Shown piece by piece: positions 3,401 to 50,500 of a stretch of 64,000 bases of DNA. The translations under genes and the position numbers were made by a program. The stretch comes from Diprion similis (Eukaryota; Arthropoda; Insecta; Hymenoptera; Diprionidae): contig NC_060113.1 in NCBI RefSeq assembly GCF_021155765.1, forward strand, positions 6,587,001-6,651,000, read 5' to 3'. The notes under the pieces are model-generated. The model was given only the letters and a program-made list of their open reading frames with translations, did no database searches and was not told where the DNA came from. The first letter of the stretch is position 1; each line of letters starts with the position of its first letter.

Positions 3401-3479
3401 TACAGTACCGTATATGCTCTAAGCATTCATCATTCTGTAAACAACCAAAATACGGATTCCCAATATTTTGTAAATTCCA

Positions 3480-5060
3480 ATGGAAAGTTCGAAATTTTGC
3501 GTCCATAGGTCTTGGACTGGCGAGGGTTTCCCACATTTTAGTAGACCGGAGGTATCTGGCTGCTTTAGTCTAAATGAAAACAGGGAATTTCTGCCAAACA
3601 CTATGCAATTGAAATACTTCAATGCACCGCCGTCGGAATCTGTCAAATTTGATCTGAAAGAGAGTTATGATTTGGTTATACGAAAACCAGCCGAAGCCGA
3701 TAATGAGAGATTAGATCACTTGTTACGGTGGATTCTTTTGAATTCCCACAAGATTCGTGCTCCACCTGACACCGATCGATGGTTTGAATTTTTCAAAGTA
3801 AATTATTCATCACACGTTAAATGTTTCAATCTTTTCTTAGTAGCGCATTTGTCAGTTGCTAAAATGAGTTTAATTAGAATAAGTGATAATTATTGATGAT
3901 TGACAATGTTCTTTATAATTGTTTATCGATTGCAGGCTACAGCCTCATTTTGTATGCTTCCGGGGTTTACTGACAATGCTTTGGTGTACTCCATTTGAAA
4001 AACAAGAAGGATGGATAATTTGTGCATCGAAGTGGCGGGGCACGATATACCTTTGCGCCTTCGATACAAAGGAGAAAAAGCTGCGAAAAAGCAACATATC
4101 TAAAAAGCAGCTACAATTTATGTCCTGGGGATTCAAATTTGAGCAATACTTACTCACCGGTATAAACAATTATTGATTGTTTATTACAATATCACTGATT
4201 TTTACGCTTTTCCCATCCCACCTCCTCCTTTCTTCATTCTCAATTAGTACTGTGTACTATTTTTCCAGATTTATATTCAGTGAGTTTAGGATCTTACAGA
4301 TTCACCTGGAAAATTACCAGACACTTCAGAACCTGTTAATGAAGCTGAAGAATTTTGCTGTATGTTTTCATCCCGCCTTGGCAATAATAGATTGTTGTAT
4401 GGCGCAGAGATGGATGGGGTTTCGTCCAATGAGATTTTAAGCGAGCCAATTGACTGGAAAAGGGTTAGATTTGTTGAGCTGAAGACAAGTCGAGTTATCG
4501 AAAACAGGCGTCAAGACGAAAACTTTAGAAAATATAAGTTAATTAAATGGTGGTGCCAAAGTTTTTTGGTCGGGATCGAAAATGTTTGTTGTGGATTCCG
4601 AGATGATCATGGTATAGTCAGAAATTTGACCAATTACAGTGTACCTGAGATGACTAGGATGTCAAAGGTGATTTAGTTTTATAAAGAATCCTTCAGATAT
4701 CAGAGAACAGCATATTTTTCAGAAACATCAACGTTAATGTTAGATTTCTGGAAAATCTTTTTCTAGTATCTATAACTGTAATTATCGTAATTTTATTTAT
4801 AAACCTTTGTGTAATTCGCAAAAATTCTATTATTATTGTTGTAGGGAATTTGGAACGCTTCAGAGTGTATGAACTTTTGCAATGAATTTTTGAATTTTGT
4901 TCAATCAGTTGTTGCAAAAGACTATAACGCATGTGTCTACAAATTCGAGTGGACACCGGGGAACGATGTGCAGGTTCATCGTATGGATAGTGAATCTGAG
5001 TACTCTTTCCTTCCTCAATGGTTCATTGATAAAGCCAAAGTACAAATGATGGAGCGGTGA
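3480..5060 (+). CDS. DXO: DXO/Rai1-family decapping exonuclease
   Basis: Four exons, 3480-3797, 3943-4159, 4300-4667 and 4845-5060, give 372 residues ending at TGA 5058-5060. Family landmarks appear in order: an N-terminal S-R-P-E-V-x-G-C-F-S block, D-R-W-F-E-F-F-K, then F-V-C-F-R-G-L-L-T-x-L-W-C-T-P-F-E, R-G-T-I-Y, and F-E-Q-Y-L. The metal-binding residues are present: G-A-E-M-D (E215, D217), E-L-K-T (E238, K240) and W-W-C-Q-S-F (Q265). DXO/Rai1 enzymes remove incomplete, unmethylated or NAD caps from RNA and degrade it 5'-3', mainly in the nucleus. The acceptor at 3942 (CTACAG) is preferred to the earlier TTGCAG at 3935 because only it keeps the frame. The ATG at 3480 starts the conserved N-terminus. 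A polyadenylation signal (AATAAA) follows near 5099. The stop is about 320 bp from that of convergent PDRG1. Confidence 0.93.
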
Positions 5061-8105: not shown

Positions 8106-9233
8106 TCAAGACAATGCTATTCTTATCATTCGATCTTTCATAGCTTCTCTGGACAATAATTTTTCTCTATCTTTTTTCCTTAAGGTCTTTGGACGGATTA
8201 GCCGTACTGGCGAAACTGCAGATGCATCCTCTGGCTTAAAATGAGTTACTCGAGCTTCTTTGTTATCTCCTTGACCTAGACCTTTTCGATCTCTTTTAAG
8301 AATTGTCTTGATTGGATACTTTGCGCCCTGGCCTGAAGGTCCCAGCCCAGTTTCTTCATCCCATCCGGTATTCAAAAGCATCTGATACCCTTTATTTTGT
8401 TTCGTTATCCCGTATGCAACAGAGCGCAATTTTGGTTTAGTATTAAAAATGTGCAGCGTTGAAGACTCATGCTGCTTAACAGATGTTTCTTTGAAAGCAG
8501 CTCTGCATATTTCACAATAAAACTCAAATTTTAAATTGTTGGCATTTTGTCGAATGGATTGAAGCTCATTTTTAAGTGACCCTTCTACTTTTGTTGTTTT
8601 AGCCCGTTCATCGTCACGTGAAAAAACAATGTCATTTTTATCACATGACAAAGTTGGGCTACTTTTGATATCTTCAGTCTCTTTCTGACTACTTTTCTTT
8701 CTCAGTAGAGCTACGATATTCAAATGATTTCTTTTAAGAGCTAACTGAGCCGCTGTCAAACCAGATTTCTCCTTTGCTTTCTTATTTACCCCAAGTTTCA
8801 ACAGATATTGAATAATTTCAAAATTACCATTATATGCTGCTGACATCAACGGAGTCCACCCAAAATCGTCGGACACATTAACATTATCTGAATTCAAATG
8901 TTTCCTTAAAAAATGTAAATCATTCTGCTCCACTGCTTTCAGAATTGAATTCGTGCTGACATTCTTGATGACTTTTTGTGTAAATAGGGAATTGTTAGAA
9001 TTGAATAGATTGCTATGTTGTTCTCTAGCTGTGTCAGATTTGGCCCAAGTATCCTGCTGAAAATTTTGGTAGATGATACCTTCGTAAGTTTTCTTCGCCT
9101 CGATTCCTTCGAAATTAAGTCGTCCAGAAAAATTCTTTGCAGATTTACTCGGCACCTCAGCGGACTCCTTGACGAAACTTTTCCAAGGTATGTCAACTGT
9201 AGTTAACGCAACCCAGTTTGGATGCAAAGACAT
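8106..9233 (-). CDS. GPANK1: GPANK1: G-patch and ankyrin repeat protein
   Basis: A single exon of 375 residues from ATG 9233 to TGA 8106. Domains in order: a variable N-terminus, two to three ankyrin repeats (about 95-180, with G-W-T-P-L-M-S-A-A-Y and L-T-A-A-Q-L-A), a C2H2-like zinc finger (C240, C243, H255, H261 in F-Y-C-E-I-C), and a G-patch (about 282-325, with the glycines G-Y-x-M-L-x-x-x-G-W and G-L-G). The C-terminus is basic. This order matches GPANK1. G-patch proteins usually bind RNA or activate DEAH-box helicases; the specific job of GPANK1 is not well established. The lack of introns contrasts with every neighbour. It is divergent from TECPR1, with 1.6 kb between the two start codons. 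Confidence 0.9.
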   Translation of the reverse strand: MSLHPNWVALTTVDIPWKSFVKESAEVPSKSAKNFSGRLNFEGIEAKKTYEGIIYQNFQQDTWAKSDTAREQHSNLFNSNNSLFTQKVIKNVSTNSILKAVEQNDLHFLRKHLNSDNVNVSDDFGWTPLMSAAYNGNFEIIQYLLKLGVNKKAKEKSGLTAAQLALKRNHLNIVALLRKKSSQKETEDIKSSPTLSCDKNDIVFSRDDERAKTTKVEGSLKNELQSIRQNANNLKFEFYCEICRAAFKETSVKQHESSTLHIFNTKPKLRSVAYGITKQNKGYQMLLNTGWDEETGLGPSGQGAKYPIKTILKRDRKGLGQGDNKEARVTHFKPEDASAVSPVRLIRPKTLRKKDREKLLSREAMKDRMIRIALS

Positions 9234-10843
9234 GGCAAAGTGTTTTCGTTCAAACTCGAGGTTGTGAGTATTAGTTTATTTCGAAAACTGGTGATGCACA
9301 GAATTAAAATAAGCAATTTGACTCGCAATTTGATGTGTAAATTTTGCTAGTTTATGATGACAGCTTCAAGACTTCCCTGTCAATATCCATGGTTAGGAAT
9401 GTTATTACGAAAAAGAAGCCTACCATCGTAGAAATGCATATCTGAATTTTTTACCTTAAAAAATTCTTCGATTTTAGGCTTTTAGTTTCTTATGTCTGTT
9501 TATTCGCTTCACGAGGCTATGTTTACGACGAAGTGGTATCTACGGTCACAATTGCTACTACTCAGTGACCATAAATAAGCCTGAGAACATAGTCTGTGAA
9601 GGCTGTCGCTGGGTACTTCTAGTTCTAGGGGTCTCTAGTCTCTAACTACTGACTCTATACTGTGATGTAACAAAATAAAATGTGTTCCTCCGGTGGTCGT
9701 GTTTTCGTCCTGTTCTGCGCCGACCATATGAAAGCCATCTTTCAGACAATCCCGAATGCGATAGATTAAAAATCCAAGATGGCCTTCATATGGAAGAGGT
9801 ACGCGCATAGACTTATTGTGATAGACTGCGCAGCCCGCGCACCGAGCTGAATTCGTAATTAAAATGAGAAGGCAACAGCTTACCCTGTAAGATTTCTGCG
9901 ACAATGATCTGGCGACACTGGCTGCGCAGAAATACATGATTATGTTCTTACATCACGAGCACTATGCGAGCTACTTTCTACTTATAGTGCCATCTAGCGT
10001 ATCTCTGCGGTATTGAATTTGAGCAGAACCCGAAGGTCAAGTGGATCGACACAAACAAAAGAGAAATAAAATCCAAACCGTTTCCAAACTGACAGCCGCC
10101 TTTGAACAATCGCGTCTGACAAACCCTCTAAGCTGTCAAACGTTATGACTTGTTGACGTAGAAATACATATTTGGTAAGCACTGATAATGACATATGGAC
10201 AGAATTGCGCGATTTTTTACTGAACGATCGATTCGTTTCTCTGCGCTACTGTCTACTTTTTATAACTCCAATCCACAGAAGTGTGACGGCAACCTCACAA
10301 TCCAAGATATCATAGGTTAAAATACGTACGCAACACTTCACTTGCGTTTCCATGTGTATTTTTGTAAGAAAGTATCCAATAATATAAAATAATATAAATC
10401 GTAATTTTGTACGGCATCGAACACATACGTGTATAACGTATGTATTATTTCAATCCTTAGATGATTCAAGACTCCTTAATCCGATTTAATCCATTGATAC
10501 TGAAACTTGTCAATATATTACTCAACACTGTCAAACACAGTGTTAAACGAAGTATTTCTCATTTCTGTTATAAGAATTCATTTTACTGTATATCTTGTAC
10601 GTAATATTCACACTGTCGTGAATAATTACAAAAAATTTTCTATCAATCTTCAACTACACTTTTTTTAATGTGTGTAATAAAACTTCTAAATTATATTGAC
10701 TTATAGTTTTAATCCTAGGTATATCGTACCTTGATGAATTTAATTTTGGAAATCAAAATTGTACAGTGCTTTTAATTATACTTTGAACTTTGTGTTTATC
10801 ATTGAAATAATAATTCTTATAATATTATACCTCAAGAGTTGAG
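9234..10843. other. Divergent promoter region between GPANK1 and TECPR1
   Basis: No gene is recognised here. It must hold the promoters of the two divergent genes. The segment 9500-10250 is GC-richer than its surroundings and contains the short hairpin at 9724-9793. A 100-codon minus frame at 9635-9937 runs across that hairpin and shows no domain, so I do not call it a gene. Confidence 0.5.
9724..9793. repeat. Short inverted repeat (18-bp arms, 34-bp loop)
   Basis: CCATATGAAAGCCATCTT at 9724-9741 pairs with AAGATGGCCTTCATATGG at 9776-9793, with 17 of 18 bases complementary. It lies in the GPANK1/TECPR1 spacer. It could be a remnant of a small foldback element or a structured transcript; nothing else supports a function. 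Confidence 0.6.
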
Positions 10844-13800
10844 ATGCCGAGTTCGTACTTATACGCCATTAACAATGAGGGAAGAGTATTCGGACTTTCG
10901 ACATCAGGCAACATGTGGAGAGAATTCATGTACTTGGGACTGGAGTTTAAACAACTCTCTGCAGTGCCTCATTTCATGTGGGCCATTGGGGGTGATCGTC
11001 AAGTTTACGTCCACGTACATGGACTAGATATACCCATACGCATCAAGGAAGAAACCTATGAAAACGAAGTAGGTTTGTCTGCCTATTACTGATCCTTGTT
11101 ATAAGAAAATCATTTATATTCCATGTAATGAAAATTTATTATTCTCAGTTCATATTGATTTTTCACTTTTCGAAGCAAATGTGTTTAAGGAATCGTTTTA
11201 CACGATAAAACTTTGAAAAAGTGCTGTACCAGTTGTTACACAATAATTCTACAATCACATTCAAACTCAGTTTCAAAATGCCAAATAAAATTACTCTTTT
11301 CAGCTATAACTCAAAACTGAATTCTGTCACTATCAACATCTTTTATGGTTTAGATTTTATCATATATTTAGAAAAGAAAATTAAGGAAGGCCGAAATTGA
11401 TGCACCGCAACATAAAGGAAGCGATATCTAAAATTACTGGATTTCTACTGTTAATTGTTTAAGATGCAAGACAAATTAAATGAAGTAATTTCGATAGCTC
11501 TTTCAGTCAATTCACATCCATTCGCGGAGTTGTTCTAACATGACTGGCACTGTTTCAAAAACGAGCATTTACTTCACTTTGAGTTTTCTCAAAAACGTGA
11601 TATGAGGAAAAGTTTCTGTTAACAAATTCGTATTTGGCATCAAAACATGCTCATGAAAGAGTTTACTCATTCTATAATGAAAAACCTATGTAAGACAGTT
11701 TTATAAGACTGATACAAAATTCCTTTCTAGATCATTTTACTTTCCTCGTTATATCCTATCTCAAGTAATGATTGGCAAAAACTTGGGCCGTGAAAAGTTA
11801 ACTAATATTTATTGTAATTTTATCTTACTTCAGCGTTGGCTACCCTTGGAAGGTTTCAGTGGGCGACTTTTACCAACAGATAGATACAACTTTTCAAGTC
11901 AAGATGGTACGGTTGATCGTAGTCGCGATAAAGTTAAGCTTCCATCTATGGCATGGCAGTGGGAAGGCGATTGGCACATTGAAACAACGCTCGATGGTCA
12001 GCCATTAGATCATGATGTATGTGCAACTTTCACATGTGACCTTAGATATTATCTATGTGAATTTGGTATAACCAAGATTGCAAATTCATAAAAAAACACA
12101 CCCTTTAGGGCTGGACTTACGCAGTGGACTTTCCAGCAACTTATTCGACAAATAAACAGTGGAAATCATGCGTCAGAAGGCGGAAATGGGTTCGATATCG
12201 GAGGTACAGTGCAATGAACTCGTGGTGCGCTATAGCACCTCTGCACAAAGATGCTACTAAGGTAACGAGCAACAGAATAACTGTGGATACAATCGTACGA
12301 CAGACTCAATTTTCTACGTATTGACGTTCAAACTGTATTTGAAATGTTTGAAACTGTAGGAGCCTTTCATAGATGTGGCTGTCGGTGGAAATCAGATTCT
12401 TGGTGGGCATTCGGGAAGCATGGTAGTTTGGGCAGTCACGGCCCATGGTAGGGTATGTATTACTATTATTATTAAAGATTATATATTACTTTTCAACTAT
12501 CAATTTCTACCTCAATATTCGATAATTGCTGTATCCAGATAATGTTCAGAGTCGGAGTAAGCACAACATCACCAGAAGGACAAAGGTGGAGTGCCATCAA
12601 GACGTCCAATGGCTACGAGGCTATTCAAGTCAGTGTTGGACCGACTGGACTTGCTTGGATCATACTAACGAATGGAAAGGCACTCGTCCGCACTGGAGTG
12701 TGCAGAGAAAATCTTATGGGTACATCGAACATTGATTAAATCCAAGTTCGGACATATATTTAAATAAATATTTTACTTCTTTTTATTCTTTCAACCTCCT
12801 TTTACAGCTATTTTATTTTTTCGTTAAATAACAGAGTTCTCCAGCTGATATTGGATAAATAATAATATCAGGACGCAGAATGCCACTGAAAGGTTTAATA
12901 AATTTGGCACTTTCCTTGTCTTACTCTTGAATACCATTAAAAATTTGAGTAACTTTTCAAAAATCGGCAAATTCATATTTCAATCCATAACAAGTAAGAG
13001 TATGTTTCCTTACATTCCAATTGACTTAGTTGCTAATTACTTTGATACATCAATTTCTCAGGTGATGGCTGGGCAGAGGTAGAACCGCCAAATGATAAAC
13101 TCCGCCTAACTCAAGTTGGAGTTGGCATAGATTCCGTGTGGGCTATTACTAATGACGGTAGTGTTTGGTTCAGAAAAGGTGTTAATGGCCAGTCGAGTAT
13201 GTTGTGTGAACAGATGGCTACAGGAACTGGATGGGTTGATATGCTAAGTAAAATGGCTCTAGTTTCAGTTTCACCGGGTGATCAGGTGATGCAATAAAGC
13301 CTTTCCATGCAAACAAATGTGACTGAGAATCCAACACGTTAATTAATGAAGTAAATATGTTTAAAGGTATGGGCGATAGGTCATGACGATCGCTGTTTAT
13401 ATTACCGAACTGGAATCCGGGGGACAGATCGAACTGGAAAAAAATGGAGGATGATTAACGCACCTCTCCAGCTTAGCAGGGCAAGCAGTAATGCTAGCCT
13501 TTCATCTAGTAATCGTCATAGTCTTTGTGGTACTCCACAGCAACAGCGGCACCAAAGTTGGGGCTCCTTGGTAAAGTAATATTTAATAAAAATGACTAAG
13601 ATCAGTGAATTTTATTAACGCTGTTCTTGAAATCAATGTTTGCATTTTTTAGACTCGGCCACACAGTACTGGGGATGGAGCGGCACTGATCAGGGATTGG
13701 GAAGAACAATCTAGATCCGCACCTACCCCCACATCTTTGAAATTGTTGCAACGCACAAGCGATGGTACTTCCACAAACAATTTGCAACAGACCTCATCCC

Positions 13801-16800
13801 AGGAATCTTATCTTAATGAGAATAAAAATAGGTGAATAAGTATAAAAATAACGTTACAATGCGTTTACGTAATTCAAGATGATTGTCAAATTCTTTTTTC
13901 GAACTACTTCGCAGATCATCAAATTCAGTGAATACGAATGACTTGACTGAAGCTAGTGTTGCCAATATAACAATATCCAACGAGTCATTAACCAAAGGTG
14001 GAGAATCCATCGTCGTTTCTGGGAAAGGAATGAGCAATACCGTTAAGGTTAATTAAAACTAAAATATTTAAATATTCTTTGTTTTTCGTCTCTGACAAAG
14101 TATATTACTTTGATAAGTTTTCAGGTAAATCCGGCTGCATGGAGCCCGGTTCATTCGGTAGGATCTATGGTTGGTGTTGAAGCACATCCCGAAACAGACG
14201 GCAGTGTATTTGATCCTGATTTAACTGGAGATTCCGGTGTTTATGGAGAAGATGAAAGTACAGCTGCGATGTATTGGGCTGAATATGACGTTTTATGGTG
14301 CAAGATCGAAGCTGGTGCCTGTTTCATTGATCAGGCTAACCCTCCAAAGTGGCGAGTTAAAAATATACTGTTAAAATATAAACCTCAGAAAACAATAACA
14401 TATACGTTAATTTGATTTTAACAGTATGAAAAAACTTGATTTCATCTAAAATGTAAAAATCATTTCAAAGCTTTAGGTACTTCATTATTTTGCGTGTTAT
14501 TATTGTCGACCATATAAGTATGTGATAGAGGTAGCGGTGATATACGTGGAAAGTCTTTCGTTAAACAACAACGAAAGCTATAACAATATTTTACTTATTT
14601 AAAATTTCCTTCGTATTTTAGGATGATAGAGGGTGATGGCACTGCTTGTGGTGAACTAACTGAACCATGGAGGGAGCATATTCTTTGCAATCTTAAGAAG
14701 CGATTAAAAGACTTGGACGCGAATACCTTATCGTATGAAAAAGCAATTGAAATGTGGGTTTTCATTAAGAATAATTATTACCATTTTTAAATTTGAATAT
14801 GATACGAAGAGAATAATGAAAATACATTCGAACACTGGTAAATTGCACGTATTGGGTCGTCTAGGTCATCCTCTGTGAAAAATGGTGATGCACGATGTCA
14901 ATTGAAAGGCAGCAAAGCATATGAAGACTGTGTTCTTGAACTAGAATGGATTAGCAATACAAGTGGTTACGTAGATTCTGGTACACTTACCATTTTGAAT
15001 ACAGACGGTGCAACTACCATGGTAAAACAAATTTTTAACAATCACTGCTTTTTCATTATCATTTGTTCGTACTTGCTAGATGACTTTGGCCAAAATATAT
15101 AATTCTCAAATTCCACTTTCAGTTGCAATTCCCAATATCCGAAATAGTATGCGTAGTCTGCTGCAGCGAGCCAGGAAACCCAAGACTTGCAATACACACT
15201 CCTAATTTAACCCGCTCAAAAATCTTAAGACTGCAATTTGCTAGTGATACTGAGATGGAAGATTGGATGGATAATCTTACTACAGGTAAGACTAATGAAA
15301 AAATACAATATTATTTCAATAACTCTATCAGTAATACACAAGTTATGTGAAAAAAAATAAGGATAATTTCGATTCCTAATTGCTAATGTTAATTTCAGTC
15401 TCGTGCCAAATAAATAATCTTCATGGAAAGCCGGGTCCAAATTCAATTTGGGTAACTACTGGTCTTGGAGATGTCTTCGTTTATGATACAGGAATGGCTG
15501 AGGTAATTTTTCTATGAAAAAATTCTGTTAAATAATTGGTACACTTGAATGTTTTAATTTTAGAAACTTCACTTTTCTGATTTATTCTAGGCTAGCCAAT
15601 TAGTTGACGGTGTTTATACACAGGAATTACATACATCTGGAAACCAATTACCATTTGAAAGCATTTTACACAATGGATTCGGACCTGGAAGTTCTTTACA
15701 CATGTCGGTTTGCCTTTATGACGACGCGGACAGGTACTCATATTTTTCTGGAATCATTGTTGTACTGAACAACATTCCTGACAGCTTGCTGCAAGAAAAA
15801 GTTCATTTCTAACAAGACAATAACTATTTTGAAATAGATTGAGAAAGATTTCTTGAGATATTGAGATTTTATAACAACTGGTTATTAGATTTGAACTAAG
15901 ACGTATAATTGATATTACAACAGATTGGCAATAAATCTGGTTTGCTATACAACAACGACAATGAAGCAACAAAAAGCAGCTGAAGGTCATGACATAGCTC
16001 TGCACTTCAATCCCCGATTAAACGAAGACGTGATTGTGAGAAATACGTATCAGTCCGGTCAATGGGGCGACGAAGAAAGAGTTGGAGAGAGTCCGTTGAA
16101 GGCAGGCTCCGATTATACCCTGAAATTCGTCTGTGAGCAAAGGGGGTACAGAATTTTTATTAATGACGTCGAATATACCTTTTACAGTCACAGAATACCA
16201 CCAGAGAACATAACGCATCTTCGCATCAAAGGGCTGATGACACTAAGTAGTGTTTGTTACAAAACGACATCTGTAAGTGAAACTCGCTAATCTCTTCAAA
16301 ACATAAAAATAAGTGAAAAGTATCTCATTTCTTATTTCAGCATGTGTATTACTAATGTTCAGAATTTTACTTATTTTCTTACTGTTGCAGGTAATCATTG
16401 AGCCAATAAAAATATTTTGGAGACAAATGGGAGGACATTTGAGGAGGGTGGAAACGTGTAGTGTTGGAGTAACATGGGGAATAGGATACGATAATACAGC
16501 GTACGTTTATACAGGAGGCTGGGGTGGAAATTTCTTGAAAGGTTATTGAATCAACTGCAATTAGTTTGCAGTGTTACATTTGCTACTCGTATACTTACTA
16601 ATCGATATTTATTACTCACAATCAGTTACAAAATTCGAATATTTTAGGTTTACGGTCTAACAATACCGGCATCAATTCAATGGTAGATACGCACAACTAC
16701 TTTGTTTATGAGAATCAACGATGGAATCCTGTTACCGGTTATACATCCCATGGATTACCAACCGATCGATATATGTGGAGTGACGTAACAGGGCGTCACA

Positions 16801-18811
16801 AGCGAACGCGAGAACACACCAAAACTCTATCAATGCACTGGCAATGGGTAGGGACAAAATTATCCATTTAAATTTAACAATTTCAACAATCGTGAATACT
16901 TTTGTTGAATTAGGTATCAGACTGGATAATAGACTTCCATACTCCTGGTGGTGTTGATAGAGATGGTTGGCAATATGCCATGGATTTCCCTGCACAATAC
17001 CACGGTCGTAAACAGTTCACCGATTATGTAAGAAGACGAAGGTGGTTTAGGCGTTGTCAGTTGAAAACTAGCGGACCCTGGCAGGAACTAGGAAATACAA
17101 AAATCGTCGACGTCTCGTTATACGTGAGCAAATTCATCGTCGTATGATGTACAATGATCTTCATTTTATCGGTAACAGCTGTAGATGCCTCAATCGAAAG
17201 AAAATAGGATTCAAAGTACTGATATGTTACTGATTTAAATTTCCTAGTATTTCTGAAATATATGTACAGGCCAGATCCATTTCTTGTTAAGAAATAGGAT
17301 GCATTCTTTTCTTTCTTGTTTAAGAGCACTGTAGAACAATCGCATCCCCGGATTTTATAAGTTAAATATGATACTGAAATCGAATTCACATATTTGAGAA
17401 CATCGTATCTAAATATTTTAAACATGAGCACCATTGGGTGATGATTAATTACTAGAAATCATTTCATATACTATCCAGATTCCAGATGGCACTGATAGTT
17501 TACATTAGGGTTTAATTATTCCTAATTTATGGCATCTTAGACAACAAGTAAACCAGGTGATGACGGTTTCATAAACGTATGGGCTGTTGCTGCTAATGGG
17601 GAAGCATTGTTCAGGCGTGGTGTTTCAGAATCGTGCCCATTAGTGAGTATAATATTTTGGTTAACTTTAGATAACTGCGATAATGTCCTCACGATAGTAT
17701 GTAAAGGTTCTCATTATTTTCGTTGCGAAAAAATTTGCACATTAAAAAATATCCCAGATGTAAATGATATGTAATTTTTCCAAAATTAACCTTTACAACA
17801 TATATGAGTATTATGAAAATTGATGACTTTCTCTATTCCCAGGGAGTTTCCTGGGAACATATACCCAGTGATCAGGCACTGATCGGCATTAGCTGCGGTC
17901 CAGAGGGTCAAGTTTGGGCTGTTGGTAAAAATGGAACTTCATACTGGAGATTTGGAATAAGTTCATCCAAGCCAACTGGTAAATATCTCCTCAGAGATGT
18001 GTCCACTTATTAAAATCAATGGTAATTAATAATGATTATTAATTATCATTTCAGGTGAAACGTGGCAAAATGTAGAGCCTCCATCAGGGGCCCAGGTGAA
18101 ACAGATTTCAGTCGGAAAAGATGTAGTTTGGGCACTGGATACAACCGGCCGATTATCAGTACGTCGGGAAGTTACAGCAAAAATTTTCCCCGAAGGAACA
18201 TACTGGCAAACTTTACCAGCCATGCCAAATGATCCAATCCATATCGGTGCGAGAAAGTATTTTTTACAAAACTTTTTCAGTTCTCCCTTGTTTTCTTTCG
18301 ATATCACGAAACATTGCAGAAGCACCATGTTAGAAATGCTAAGAGGTGCATTTACACAAGTTTATGTTACCTTTTTTTTTGTTGCATTTGTTATGTTATC
18401 ATGTATCCAATAGTAGCATATTAAGTAGTGATTTGGCACCGTTTTTTCATTTATTGTAATTACTTTTTTGTTGTAGCAACAATTGTTGAAAACGATAACA
18501 TAGCAGACAATTTTTGTATATTATATACAGATACTTCTGTTCCAACTGCCAAACAAGGATTTCGTCATATATCTGTGGGTAGAGAAAAGGGTCAAGTATG
18601 GGCTGTCTCTGGAGCTGGCATTGTTTGTCGGAGAATAGGTATAACTGATGAAAATCCAGCTGGAACCGGATGGACAACTGGTATTGGTGTAAGTATAGAT
18701 TTGTCGTTATTCTATTAATAATTTTACCAACCATCTGTTTTAATAAATTCGTTTCTTTAGGCAAATTGGCAGTACATAAGTGCCGGTGGTCTTGTAAACC
18801 AGGTACAATAA
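10844..18811 (+). CDS. TECPR1: TECPR1/Pex23-like tectonin protein with inserted galectin domain
   Basis: 24 exons, 4050 nt, 1349 residues: 10844-11068, 11834-12016, 12109-12261, 12360-12452, 12539-12719, 13062-13285, 13367-13570, 13653-13831, 13915-14047, 14125-14351, 14622-14753, 14865-15021, 15123-15285, 15399-15502, 15591-15733, 15924-16272, 16391-16541, 16648-16847, 16914-17123, 17541-17642, 17843-17978, 18055-18246, 18531-18688, 18761-18811. Domain order: tectonin blades; DysF (Y-E-N-E-x-W, about 70-185); tectonin repeats (188-420); Ser-rich linker; PH-like domain (about 560-745); galectin domain (about 790-950); second DysF (Y-E-N-Q-R-W-N-P, P-T-D-R-Y-M-W-S-D, about 1015-1120); C-terminal tectonin repeats with V-W-A signatures. 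TECPR1 binds sphingomyelin on damaged lysosomes, recruits ATG5-ATG12 and tethers autophagosomes. The DysF-PH-DysF-tectonin order matches; vertebrate TECPR1 as I know it lacks the galectin insert. The exon 10 donor is ambiguous (see findings). Confidence 0.93.
15591..16272 (+). other. Galectin carbohydrate-recognition domain within TECPR1 (exons 15-16)
   Basis: Exons 15 (15591-15733) and 16 (15924-16272) encode a complete galectin fold between the PH-like domain and the second DysF domain. Exon 15 gives the opening strands with G-F-G-P-G-S-S-L. Exon 16 gives I-A-L-H-F-N-P-R, V-R-N and W-G-D-E-E-R. The residues that contact beta-galactoside in canonical galectins are all kept: H861, N863, R865, V872, N874, W881, E884 and R886. 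The domain ends near K-G-L-M-T-L-S-S-V. Flanking introns are of phase 0 (before 15591 and after 16272), so the two exons form a symmetric cassette that could have been inserted without breaking frame. Binding activity is inferred from residues only. Confidence 0.9.
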
Positions 18812-39367: not shown

Positions 39368-42075
39368 CTAATTGATTGGAACTTTCTCTGAAGATATTTG
39401 AAACGTATCAGGATTCGTTGCACATCCAGGACAAGTGTGGAGCGTTTCGTGAATAAATATTTCACAGTCCAAACAAAAGCCTTGCTGACATTTACCGCAC
39501 ATGTATACCTGAAACAATAAAGTCATAACGTTTGAGTTTTAAGTATTAGAATGAACATCTCCATGAAGCAAAATACATACGTCATTTATATACCTATGTA
39601 ATGAACAATTTTACCAATTAAGACAGGTAATTTCAGGGAAAATAGGGGACAACTTGTGAAAATAGGAGAACATTAGGGTTCCAAAAGTTTTGTGCAGTCA
39701 CAGGAAAAAAACGTTGAGACGATGTTATATTTAATTTCGATGTGGACTTAAATATCTCCAAATATTCAAGTCCACAGATTTTTAATGCAAAGAACAGCAT
39801 AACAGCCACATTCGACCTGCGAGTCTAAATAAAAACAAGCTAAAGCGTGCTTAAAGGTACATTTAAAGAAAACCTTAGGTTTTACAGTACTTGTAGGGTA
39901 CTTTTAGCGAAATAGAGAAACCACCGTAAAATCTACAATCGAATGTAACTCACCTTCTTATCTAATTGAGTGAGGACTTTTCTACACCCATAACATATAG
40001 AAGGAGATCCTTCATACGTTTCTTCTCTATAGTTTTCAACCGGAAATAAATGGTGATAAGAACGAGCCAAATGAGGAGCTGACACAAGGGTCAGTCCACA
40101 TGCTCGACATTCGACGGGTAATTCGCAATGTTTACTCAGACATTGTGGACACAAGTATCCAGTTGTCACAAGCTTGCTATCTTCTTCCGAACTTTCACAG
40201 TGGCTGAATGCAGGAATAAGAAATAAAAATTAAAACAATCATAATAAAGGTATAAATAAAGATACCTTTGTTCAAATAATTACATAATAAGAAGAATAAT
40301 ATTAATAGGAATGAAAGAAACTTATTTTGACCGTGTAGTGGTCTTGCAAAAATTATAACAAACAGTACTTGCCACATGCACATCGTCATTGGTGTTTCCG
40401 CAGTCGAATGCAATGCATGATGAGGGAAGCCCATCTTCACCAGGGCCGAGTCTAATCTGGTAGCAGCTGCTGGTGGATCTACATGAATGCTCAACTGTTC
40501 CTTGTAATGCTTGTCGTCTAAAACAACTCCGTGATCGCCACCAGTTGCGGTAGCCAAACGTTTACAGATATGTAATTCAGCAGCCAATCCTATCACACTA
40601 CAGCGCACTCCTTCAGATTTTAAAGTCTGTAATTAGAATCGTAAGCTGATTATGAGAACATCAAGAGTATTGTTCTTAAAAACATGTTCTACAGTATCAC
40701 GAATTGCGATACCAAAACGTACTTCTATTGTAGTATTGATGTCCCCTGGGTCACAGGTAGTTAGCGAACCCATCAACACAAGGATTTCCCTACTTGCATG
40801 CGACGGCAGCAATTTTAGGGATTTTAGTGCCAGTTCTAGTGAGTTTTGAATCGACGGTTCACCCGTCAAAGCTGTAAGATGCAAGCCCTTCAATTCCTGA
40901 GATAGAAAAAGGCAAGTATGCTAAATGTGATAATGAAGTTCAAGATAAAGCTCATCGACATTGATATAAGACTAATAAAGATAGGTACTTTGATTCAAAT
41001 GGATACAAGATATATTCACGCACTATAAAATGATTCCCAACAGAAAATTTACGCTATTGTGAGGCCTGTGTGATCGTTAATGATAAAAGAACAAGTAGTT
41101 GGAGATTTTCGGAGTTTCAAATCACATTTAAGTTTGGCGCAATACCTTGATGTGTTTCTTTGGGTTTCCGGCAAGCTCGCTCAATTTCTCAGCCCGTTTA
41201 TTCCTTGTTACGATCAAACCAAGTTGACTTATAGGATTTTGATCGAAGAATTCATCAATGAAATCTTCCAAAAGCTGAAATAAAATACTTTTTATGAAAT
41301 AAAATTGATCTACGATTGCTACATAGTGAAAATCAAACCACTTAAATCAAATCCCTTGAATTTTTGAAACAGATTTCAATCATTTTTTTTGGAGTATGAT
41401 ATAGAATGATTGAAAAAATTCATCAAATACAAATTGAATGCTGAAGCTCGACATGACTGATGAAGAAAATGTGGATTATGCATATCGAGAAGAATGATGG
41501 TAATTTCAACTGAACTTTCCCAAACAATAAAACTCCCAGACTACTGTTAGTTTTTAAAGTCTGCTAGGTTCGTGTAAGCCTACTTTTATGGAACAAAGTA
41601 ATCTCGTTGGTTTCAAGTCCTGATTAGACATAGCTTCCGAACAGTCTAAAACAATGTAAAGATGTCTCATCATTCCCAGCCTTGCACCGCCATGTCTTTC
41701 CGACTGACGTTTCCTCTTCGCTCTTTGAATAATATCTGCCACCGCTCCTTCCAACAACCCATCGTCGTCTTCCTTGATCGCCTCCCTGAAGAATTGTAGA
41801 TACACGGTACTGATATGCTTGCATGTAAAAATATGAGCCAATTTACCAAAGAAAACAATGTTCTGATTTTTGAATTGGTTGATTTAGGTGTGAATCTCCA
41901 ATTAATCAAGTGTAATCGAAAATTCAATGTTCGGGAACTGAAGGCACGGTGAATTCGTTGATTATAAGTCTTAATTTGGTCGCTAAGCAATTTACCGACA
42001 TTTCTGAATAGCTTACCATGTTTTCTCATATCCAGTTTCCCACCGATATTCCTTTCCGTCATCCTCGTCAGCCAT
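39368..42075 (-). CDS. GTF2H2: TFIIH core subunit p44 (general transcription factor IIH subunit 2)
   Basis: Seven minus-strand exons: 42017-42075, 41584-41785, 41146-41274, 40723-40896, 40373-40626, 39954-40203, 39368-39508 (1209 nt, 402 residues; human p44 has 395). N-terminus [12 protein letters not shown], then the von Willebrand A-like domain starting R-H-L-Y-I-V-L-D and including D-Q-D-L-K-P-x-R, G-N-P-K-K-H-I and L-T-T-C-D-P-G-D-I. The C-terminus has the C4 zinc finger ([33 protein letters not shown] in blocks) and a RING-like module (C-G-K-C, C-L-D-C, H-T-C-P-G-C). p44 activates the XPD helicase in transcription initiation and nucleotide-excision repair. The intron between exons 5 and 6 uses a GC donor with the perfect form GTG|GCAAGT; the nearby GT donor breaks the frame. 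Confidence 0.96.
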
Positions 42076-47500: not shown

Positions 47501-50500
47501 TTTGAGCGAAGTCTCGCCAAGCAGAAAGAACTCAAGGCAGCACAGCAGCAAGCGGCTGCGTTAAAGTCAGCGGCAGCGCGACCCTCCTTGCCTGCACAAA
47601 AACCAACTCCTAAGCCTGAAGCTGGCAAACCTGGTCCAAGTAGTGCTGCCCAAGCAACGTAAGTGTCTGTTTATAATAGGTAGTTATATTCTGTCCATTG
47701 AAACTGAACATCAGAATTCCGTTCTCAAGTGTGTTTCGGTTTTTGTATACACAGATTCAAAGGTCATTTAAAATGTTGTCAATAAAGTTTATAACCTTTT
47801 ATTTGAATTCTAGGAGACCCATGCGATCTAGTAAGTCAAAGGCTATGGACCAAGTCAAGCAGTGGTGCGGCTCGATGAAAGATGAAGATAGCGAACGTGA
47901 GTGACAACTGTTAGCTGAATATCTTCAGTCATACGTAGACATTACCTGTAAAATTGAACGAAAATGTTTTTACAGTGCTGGGAAAGAGGCGCATTGCATT
48001 TTCGGATAGCGATTCAGAAGAAACTGGTAGCGTTAACGCAAAACGAATGAAAACTGATACTGGTAGTGACGATGATTGGTCGGGAGACTCGGAAGACGAA
48101 TCCATGGGCCGCAGTGACGTTATACAACGAGCGTTCAATCGAGCAACTGCACAATCGAATGGATCAAATCGCACAGTTGTCTCAGGAACCGACCTTGCAA
48201 CTTCTCTAGGCCTACAGTCACCAGAGGCACCAAAATCTGGTCAAACTCCAGTCCTAGTAGCTAGTGCTAAAGGCGTCGTCAAAGTTGATCCGAAACAAAT
48301 GCCAAACCTAACGTCCGGAGTCTATGTAATGTCAAGAAAAGATGGTATAATAAAACTAGACTCATCACCCAGTGGTAAACTTGGTGTTAAAGGATCGCCA
48401 ACCCCCCAAGGCGTCCTGATGGTACAAAATCGCGATGCTTCTGGAGTGGTTCGTAAGCAAGTTCTTTCTGCTGGACAACCAACTTCCACTATTACGCCAG
48501 TGAAAGTTGTCTCAAAGCCCGACGGTAGTCAGGTTGTAACTCAAATGAAGATAGTATCCAAAGGATCTTCTCCAAAGGCCGTAACTACAACGGTACAGAA
48601 ACAAGAACCCATTAAGATTCAGCCAAAGCCTGAGGTCAACCAACTACAACAAATCCATGTTGTTACCGCTGTACCAAACCTACCGACGATGGGACTGCAG
48701 CCCAGAATGAGTGCTGGAATACGGGGGAATCTAGGAACCACGCAGCGTGGCGTTAACCGCCCATTGCTAGCCAGAACACCACTTCGAGGTACAACACCTA
48801 CTAGTATACTGGGTTCTACGCTTCGTACCCCGGTCAGAGCTCCAGCACCCAAGCAATTGCAGGGACAGCAAAGTAGACAAATGCTTCAAAAGCGTCCATC
48901 CACTGGAGCTGTGCAAAGTCCTACATCCGCAGGAAGTCCTAGCCCTGGTACGACGCAAGTAAAACCGAAGTACACTGTACTTAGTGCCCAACCAAAGCAG
49001 ATGCAGAAGACTGTAGGCAGTCCTCAAGCAAAACAAGGACCAAGACCTCAGCTTGCCAAACAACAGTCGCTGCTTTCACCTCAGCAAAAATTATTGATGG
49101 CAAAGAAGAAAGCACAGGAAGCAGCTGGCGTGCACAAACCTGTTCGCGGCCTCTTGGCCGGTGCTCGTGGAACTCCAGGACGTGGAAGAGGTAAAACTGG
49201 CGAAGCAGCGTCCGTAACGCCTGGTGCCAACAAACCGAAAGAAAGTAAGCTCGCCGACGGGGATGGTTTGCATATGGAATTTCACGAAGTTGGTTCTGAA
49301 GAGAGTAGCAGTGACGGTGAGCCCGAACCTTCTCTTGATTCAGGGCCAATTCCTCCCATTGAACCCGATAGCCCGCCCCGTCCCTTCACACTCTGTCCTC
49401 TGACAGGTCGCATCGTGGGTCCGGATGGAGAGCCGGTGGAACAGCCTGCTGAACAAACACCTGAGCCTACCCCAGCTACAACTTCGCAAACTACCGGTGG
49501 TACGGTTGCGGTTGCTGCTGTTGCTACCGGTGCCACGGTTGTTACTACCACCACAACCACCACCATAACTGCCGCTGTTGCAGATACTAAAAGCAACATA
49601 GTCGACACGACTACTTCAACAACAACCACAACCCCAGCAAGTGCTGAACTGGTTTTACCGTCGCTAGATTCTCTTACCGAAGGTACTGGCATTATGAGGG
49701 TAGAGATGAGCCCAGGTGGAACGACGGGCACTATTGTCCAGACTAGCGAAGCGACGCAAATTAACTTATCGGACGTAGCTGTTGCTGCGACTGCTGCTCC
49801 AGACCTTCCTTGTCTGGATGACAGTGCTCCTCCCGCTGTAACGGCAACGACTACCTCTGCGTCAACTTCGCTGACAGAATCAACGTCAGTAACCGAAATT
49901 CCGGCTGCTACGTCTTTGACTACAACTCCAACTACTACAGCTGCTGTAATTTCTACCACATCTATGACTTCGCCTGCAGCTACAGTGTCGACTTCTGTTA
50001 CTACTTCTCCGGTTTCAACCGATGAAAAGACTGAAGACAAAGTTGACGACGATAAGAAGGTCGCTGAGGATACGTCTGGCTTAGTAACTATAACCAGTGA
50101 AGATGGTGTGGTTTATCAAGTAACTGGTCAAGGCGAAGATGGTCAAACCTTACTAGTTACGCAAGGTGCTGACGGTGAACAGCAGTGCGTCTATGTCACG
50201 ACTGAGCAACAAGGTGATGATGGTTCCGTGTTGACATTAGACCATGCAGTAGCTGAAGCTGTTGCCCAACTAATGCCGGACCAAGTGAATCTCACCCCTC
50301 AGTTCTACGTCAAAGAAGGAGATGCCGAATCATCTGATAGTCAAATGGTAATGTCTATTATGGATAATAACGGCACAGCTGTTGCAGCAGGGCAGGAAGA
50401 AGCTGATGGGCAAGCTCAGGTTGTTGCACAAGTCGTACAAGCAGATGAACCTACACCAGGTAATTATCGTTACGTGTTGAAAGACGTTTAATATTTTGCA

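Follow-up and report, generated by a model that had tools for sequence, protein, structure and literature searches.

The TECPR1 locus and its galectin-coding exons

Examination of the window, the whole stretch of 64,000 nucleotides from Diprion similis that was analysed, revealed on its plus strand a gene of 24 coding exons which, judged from its sequence, is an ordinary orthologue of the autophagy and lysosome-damage protein TECPR1. The exon model was assembled by picking splice borders that hold the frame open, and all chosen introns are of the GT-AG type. Where an exon allowed alternative borders, as several did, a simple splice score decided; for exons 15 and 16, each with two possible ends, the choice fell on those of an earlier note made on this DNA. 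The model runs from a start codon to the first in-frame stop in exon 24, which ends at 18811, and a further 3' exon may follow. The features discussed below are:

10844-18811, plus strand: TECPR1/Pex23 orthologue, 24 coding exons, 1348 amino acids (exon model with GT-AG introns and Pfam)
10844-12261, plus strand: exons 1-3, N-terminal DysF domain (residues about 61-171) and LIR-like motif W175CAI178 (phmmer match to human TECPR1 8p5p, E 4.9e-39)
14622-14753, plus strand: exon 11, position of the ATG5-interacting AIR (W616) (phmmer hit on 4tq1_B, weak at E 0.84)
15399-15502, plus strand: exon 14, tectonin-repeat strand WVTTGLGDVFVYD directly 5' of the insert (exon model)
15591-15733, plus strand: exon 15, N-terminal part of the galectin domain, coding for residues 786-832 plus the first two bases of codon 833 and beginning in phase 0 (exon model, Pfam)
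15924-16272, plus strand: exon 16, part of the galectin domain in which all eight ligand contacts lie, running from the last base of codon 833 through residue 949 and ending in phase 0 (PF00337, E 2.7e-29)
16391-16541, plus strand: exon 17, tectonin repeat that follows the insert (KIFWRQMGGHL...), beginning in phase 0 (exon model)
16648-17123, plus strand: exons 18-19, C-terminal DysF domain (phmmer match to 8p5p, E 7.9e-23)

A Pfam hmmscan of the spliced protein returned five families at E 0.01, among them Hyd_WA (1e-66, eight stretches), Tectonin (1.6e-31, four stretches) and Pex24p/DysF (1.9e-17, two stretches). Two separated DysF domains combined with tectonin repeats, as looked for in a TECPR1, are present in the Pfam matches, and both DysF domains match 8p5p. 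The earlier note had counted 1349 residues; the model has 1348, and the residue numbers given there near the galectin domain are one too high.

Two of the exons, 15 and 16, code for a galectin domain. They had been claimed at 15591-16272 with phase-0 outer borders, and the same coordinates were recovered, with GT-AG introns, phases 0/0 at the outer borders and phase 2 at the inner intron; together they comprise 492 nt, or 164 codons. Residues 806-943 of the spliced protein match PF00337 (Gal-bind_lectin) with an E-value of 9.9e-33 and a score of 112.8 bits, where the cut-off lies at 22.1, and exon 16 on its own matches the same family (E 2.7e-29), values that rule out a chance match and bear out the proposal that TECPR1 carries a full galectin domain here. 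The best solved-structure matches of the domain are the galectins 5glt and 4hl0 (about 1e-38), followed by galectin-9 and galectin-8. When exon 16 was modelled by itself with single-sequence AlphaFold2, the result was of low quality (pLDDT 49.4). The GC content of the galectin exons (0.42, and 0.40 at third positions) is near that of the remaining coding sequence (0.45 and 0.36, respectively), so that composition gives no sign of a foreign origin. Searches for relatives were run against viral, bacterial and archaeal collections, which have no bearing on the distribution of the insert among animals: no relatives were found among viral contigs with the galectin domain or the first 387 residues of the protein, nor among genome contigs with the C-terminal 399 residues or exon 16.

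The galectin domain is set into the linker that joins the tectonin strand of exon 14 to the tryptophan of the following repeat (KIFW, exon 17). Without exons 15 and 16 this linker would be 14 residues long, and six other linkers measure 11, 11, 18, 11, 11 and 11 residues according to a repeat pattern that found seven cores against the eight Hyd_WA stretches of Pfam and therefore missed some repeats. Such an ordinary length suggests a clean insertion into an inter-repeat loop. The domain had been placed between a PH-like and the second DysF domain; that position stands and can be narrowed to an inter-repeat tectonin linker, but the term PH-like is warranted by position only, as no PH domain was found among the Pfam matches of this protein at E 0.01. 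In vertebrate galectin genes, an intron lies at a comparable point, ahead of the HFNPR motif, a layout that would be consistent with a shuffling of genomic exons.

Several other coding stretches were observed in the window. An open frame of 389 amino acids at 8106-9275 on the minus strand, divergent from TECPR1 and about 1.6 kb from its start, carries ankyrin repeats (Ank_2, 2.8e-15) and a G-patch (6.9e-13), and we take it to be GPANK1-like. The minus strand also encodes part of a homologue of Ssl1, the p44 subunit of TFIIH, at 40195-40632 (PF04056, 1.2e-22), and part of a RAI1-like nuclease lies at 3474-3896 on the plus strand (PF08652, 2.2e-12). An open frame of 850 amino acids at 47939-50491 on the plus strand, in which Thr, Ser, Val and Pro are abundant by eye, stands out by its GC content: 0.50 in its 2-kb bin, the bins on either side having 0.38 and 0.36. 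It matched no Pfam family at E 0.01. Across the whole window, neither Rfam at the gathering threshold nor a tRNA scan gave a match.

Residues of the predicted sugar-binding and lipid-binding sites

The eight positions listed in the earlier note as the canonical beta-galactoside contacts of galectins read H-N-R-V-N-W-E-R. All eight are kept in the TECPR1 insert, as H860, N862, R864, V871, N873, W880, E883 and R885 in the 1348-residue numbering; the residues had been named correctly beforehand under numbers shifted by one (H861 for H860, and so on). For comparison, five of the 162 matching PDB sequences, with two domains each, were aligned, and six of these ten domains were tabulated. The same eight letters occur in domain 2 of 4hl0, in both galectin-9 domains of 3wv6 and in domain 2 of galectin-8 (3vkl), and one contact differs in domain 1 of 4hl0 (N to S) and in domain 1 of galectin-8 (last R to I). 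The domains outside the table are both of 5glt, which read like 4hl0 in the contact stretches, and both of 8yzq, which have F for W. The ligand site thus looks intact, and the galectin domain of TECPR1 is by its sequence competent for sugar binding, glycan binding itself being predicted.

Galectins are also able to make protein contacts, and a domain embedded in a linker between tectonin repeats could serve the propeller as a scaffold or as a module for protein interactions, independently of glycans, its ligand residues being kept by fold constraints or by recent ancestry. We regard this as unlikely: the insert could be of any age, but the retention of eight out of eight ligand residues would be unexpected if binding had been dispensable over long times.

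The N-terminal DysF domain is identical to that of human TECPR1 (PDB 8p5p) at 59 of 111 positions, in a gapless alignment in which even the residue numbers coincide. Passages of the study of the human protein (PMC10476172) name six sphingomyelin-site residues, by their charge or as exposed tryptophans (R76, W77, D143, K152, K153 and W154), with W154 being essential. Five of the six are kept here (R76, W77, D143, K152 and W154), and K153 is replaced by glutamine (Q153). The structural Trp and Arg residues named in those passages are all kept (8/8). The LIR-like motif W175CAI178 is in register with the LC3-interacting motif given for human TECPR1, W175AKI178 (PMC7293217). At the AIR, the match to 4tq1_B, which is TECPR1 by its PDB name, is weak (E 0.84, third of six rows). 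In the C-terminal DysF domain (16648-17123), phenylalanine (KQF) is found where the lipid-inserting W154 would stand. Of the two human DysF domains, only the N-terminal one accumulates on damaged membranes according to passages of PMC10476172, whereas in other work both contribute to lipid binding (PMC12128658 among the passages concerned). Judged by its residues, this TECPR1 combines an intact galectin ligand site with the LIR and with five of the six lipid-site residues of DysF, lipid binding being likewise predicted.

Human, fly and honey-bee counterparts

The second tectonin-repeat region (TR2) of human TECPR1 is described as residues 722-1165, or 444 amino acids (PMC7293217). The matching stretch of the Diprion protein, with its start set at V751, has 598 amino acids with the galectin domain and 434 without it, a length comparison that leaves no room for a galectin in human TECPR1. 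The two proteins are alike in their DysF domains, in the position of the LIR and in the sphingomyelin-site residues, but the human one is without room for the 164-residue cassette, and no galectin is among the domains named in the passages of PMC7293217 that describe it. Human TECPR1 thus appears, from its sequence length and described domains, to be without a galectin domain.

The insert has its family and its ligand motif in common with galectin-8, galectin-9 and the galectins 4hl0 and 5glt, which are stand-alone lectins, not known to be fused to tectonin or DysF domains. Galectin-8 is described as a cytosolic sensor of exposed glycans (PMC10476172).

The nearest counterparts in insects were compared through their published descriptions rather than their sequences. 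Drosophila Pex23/CG32226 (Q9VWB0) is an orthologue of TECPR1. Its protein of 1350 amino acids, against 1348 here, is presented as the likely TECPR1 counterpart in passages of a study in which RNAi of the putative Pex23 in S2 cells led to more and smaller peroxisomes (PMC3837297). In a muscle RNAi screen, CG32226 was paired with human TECPR1 and scored as a positive regulator of autophagy (PMC4334200). The entry TECPR_DROME (Q9VWB0) was grouped with TECPR1 elsewhere, in a paper whose main text does not contain the word galectin (PMC8172628). A honey-bee gene, apparently the orthologue of CG32226, was called galectin-family as early as 2008, the relevant passage giving no domain positions (PMC2447852).

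The earlier suggestion that the insert may occur in other invertebrates receives indirect support, for bee and fly, from the galectin-family label of the one and the length of the other, as these sources give them. TECPR1 of both insects probably carries a galectin domain, and the same two observations make it unlikely that the insert is new to this species. They also bear on the exon model itself. A cassette of 492 nt with symmetrical phase 0 borders is frame-neutral, so that a form in which the exons are skipped is possible; the galectin exons might then belong to a minor splice form only, or else to a separate nested gene that was mis-joined to the model and lies outside the TECPR1 mRNA. 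Such an arrangement is very improbable in view of the GT-AG signals at every border, the published label of the bee orthologue and the reported length of the fly protein, which is near 1348 and not near the 1184 amino acids that would be left without the cassette. The Diprion gene probably adds one more example to a TECPR1-galectin architecture of insects that was already visible in annotation, its function being predicted. A full-text literature search, whose coverage leaves out most subscription journals, yielded no discussion of a galectin domain of TECPR1 among the titles and passages covered, and in three papers on TECPR1 and lysosome damage (PMC12128658, PMC10476172, PMC10481663) the word Drosophila had 0 occurrences.

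A putative receptor for two damage signals

Human TECPR1 is described as binding, through its N-terminal DysF domain, to sphingomyelin exposed on damaged endomembranes and as forming an E3-like complex with ATG5-ATG12 (PMC10476172, PMC10481663); it recruits ATG5 and conjugates LC3 at these membranes (PMC10476172). Passages of the same studies have it arriving at the damage minutes before galectin-3 (PMC10481663) and ahead of galectin-8 (PMC10476172), and LC3 conjugation at ruptured lysosomes may need extra, galectin-dependent signals (PMC12128658). The main sphingolipid of invertebrate membranes is described as ceramide phosphoethanolamine and not sphingomyelin (PMC6433908), the former being the Drosophila analogue of the latter (PMC9550178).

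In the mechanism that we propose, the second tectonin-repeat region would carry the galectin carbohydrate-recognition domain as a two-exon, frame-neutral cassette. The N-terminal DysF finger would engage a lumenal sphingolipid, either sphingomyelin or ceramide phosphoethanolamine, exposed early in damage, and the galectin domain would then bind beta-galactosides bared by the rupture of the membrane. Through this glycan hold, TECPR1 would stay on the broken vesicle together with its partner ATG12-ATG5, or more of both would be added there, for ATG8 conjugation. A TECPR1 acting with its galectin domain as a two-signal damage receptor is the most likely reading, to which we assign a probability of about 0.5; for this protein we infer glycan binding, recruitment to damaged vesicles and recruitment of ATG5. 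Counted in its favour are the PF00337 match (E 9.9e-33), the complete set of contacts (8/8), the likeness of the N-terminal DysF domain (59/111), the LIR and the published autophagy score of CG32226. Counted against it are the change of K153 to Q, the prevalence of ceramide phosphoethanolamine, the weak AIR match (E 0.84), the missing Pfam match for a PH domain, the reported link of the fly gene to peroxisomes and the fact that the contacts were assigned by alignment.

The broad ligand range of galectins also allows for a domain that binds other glycans, such as glycosphingolipids, nuclear or cytosolic glycans or those of microbial surfaces, which would make TECPR1 a direct sensor of pathogen coats instead of rupture. 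The bee orthologue of CG32226 fits with this, since a passage of PMC2447852 has it, beside two immunity-linked genes, as apparently upregulated in Varroa-tolerant bees. We consider such a role improbable, as human TECPR1 is described at damaged endolysosomes (PMC10476172, PMC10481663) and no sequence feature points to microbial ligands.

Turning again to the two-signal receptor, the earlier note had pictured a single-protein coincidence detector. The elements of a dual sensor (the domain, its ligand residues, the DysF site and the LIR) were all found in the sequence, but the reported order of arrival favours reinforcement over AND-logic: since TECPR1 precedes galectin-3 and galectin-8 in mammalian cells, a sensor that works in sequence or by reinforcement is no less likely than a coincidence detector. 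In the simplest view, the galectin on TECPR1 would be a second, later-engaging anchor on ruptured vesicles. As ceramide phosphoethanolamine is the main sphingolipid in invertebrates, this may be the lipid recognised by the conserved W154 finger, in which case a larger share of the sensing in insects may fall to the galectin domain.

More tentatively, and at somewhat less than even odds, TECPR1 of insects and perhaps of other invertebrates would be a single-chain receptor that responds to lipid scrambling as well as to exposed glycans on broken endolysosomes. It would unite two pathways that vertebrates split between TECPR1 and galectin-8 or galectin-3, the galectin arm having arisen in invertebrates or else disappeared from the vertebrate line. 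If true, both damage signals would be read by the very protein that installs ATG8 on damaged vesicles, and the order and logic of lipid and glycan sensing could be tested by point mutations in a single gene, Drosophila Pex23. It would also bear on how TECPR1 and galectins came to divide the labour between them.
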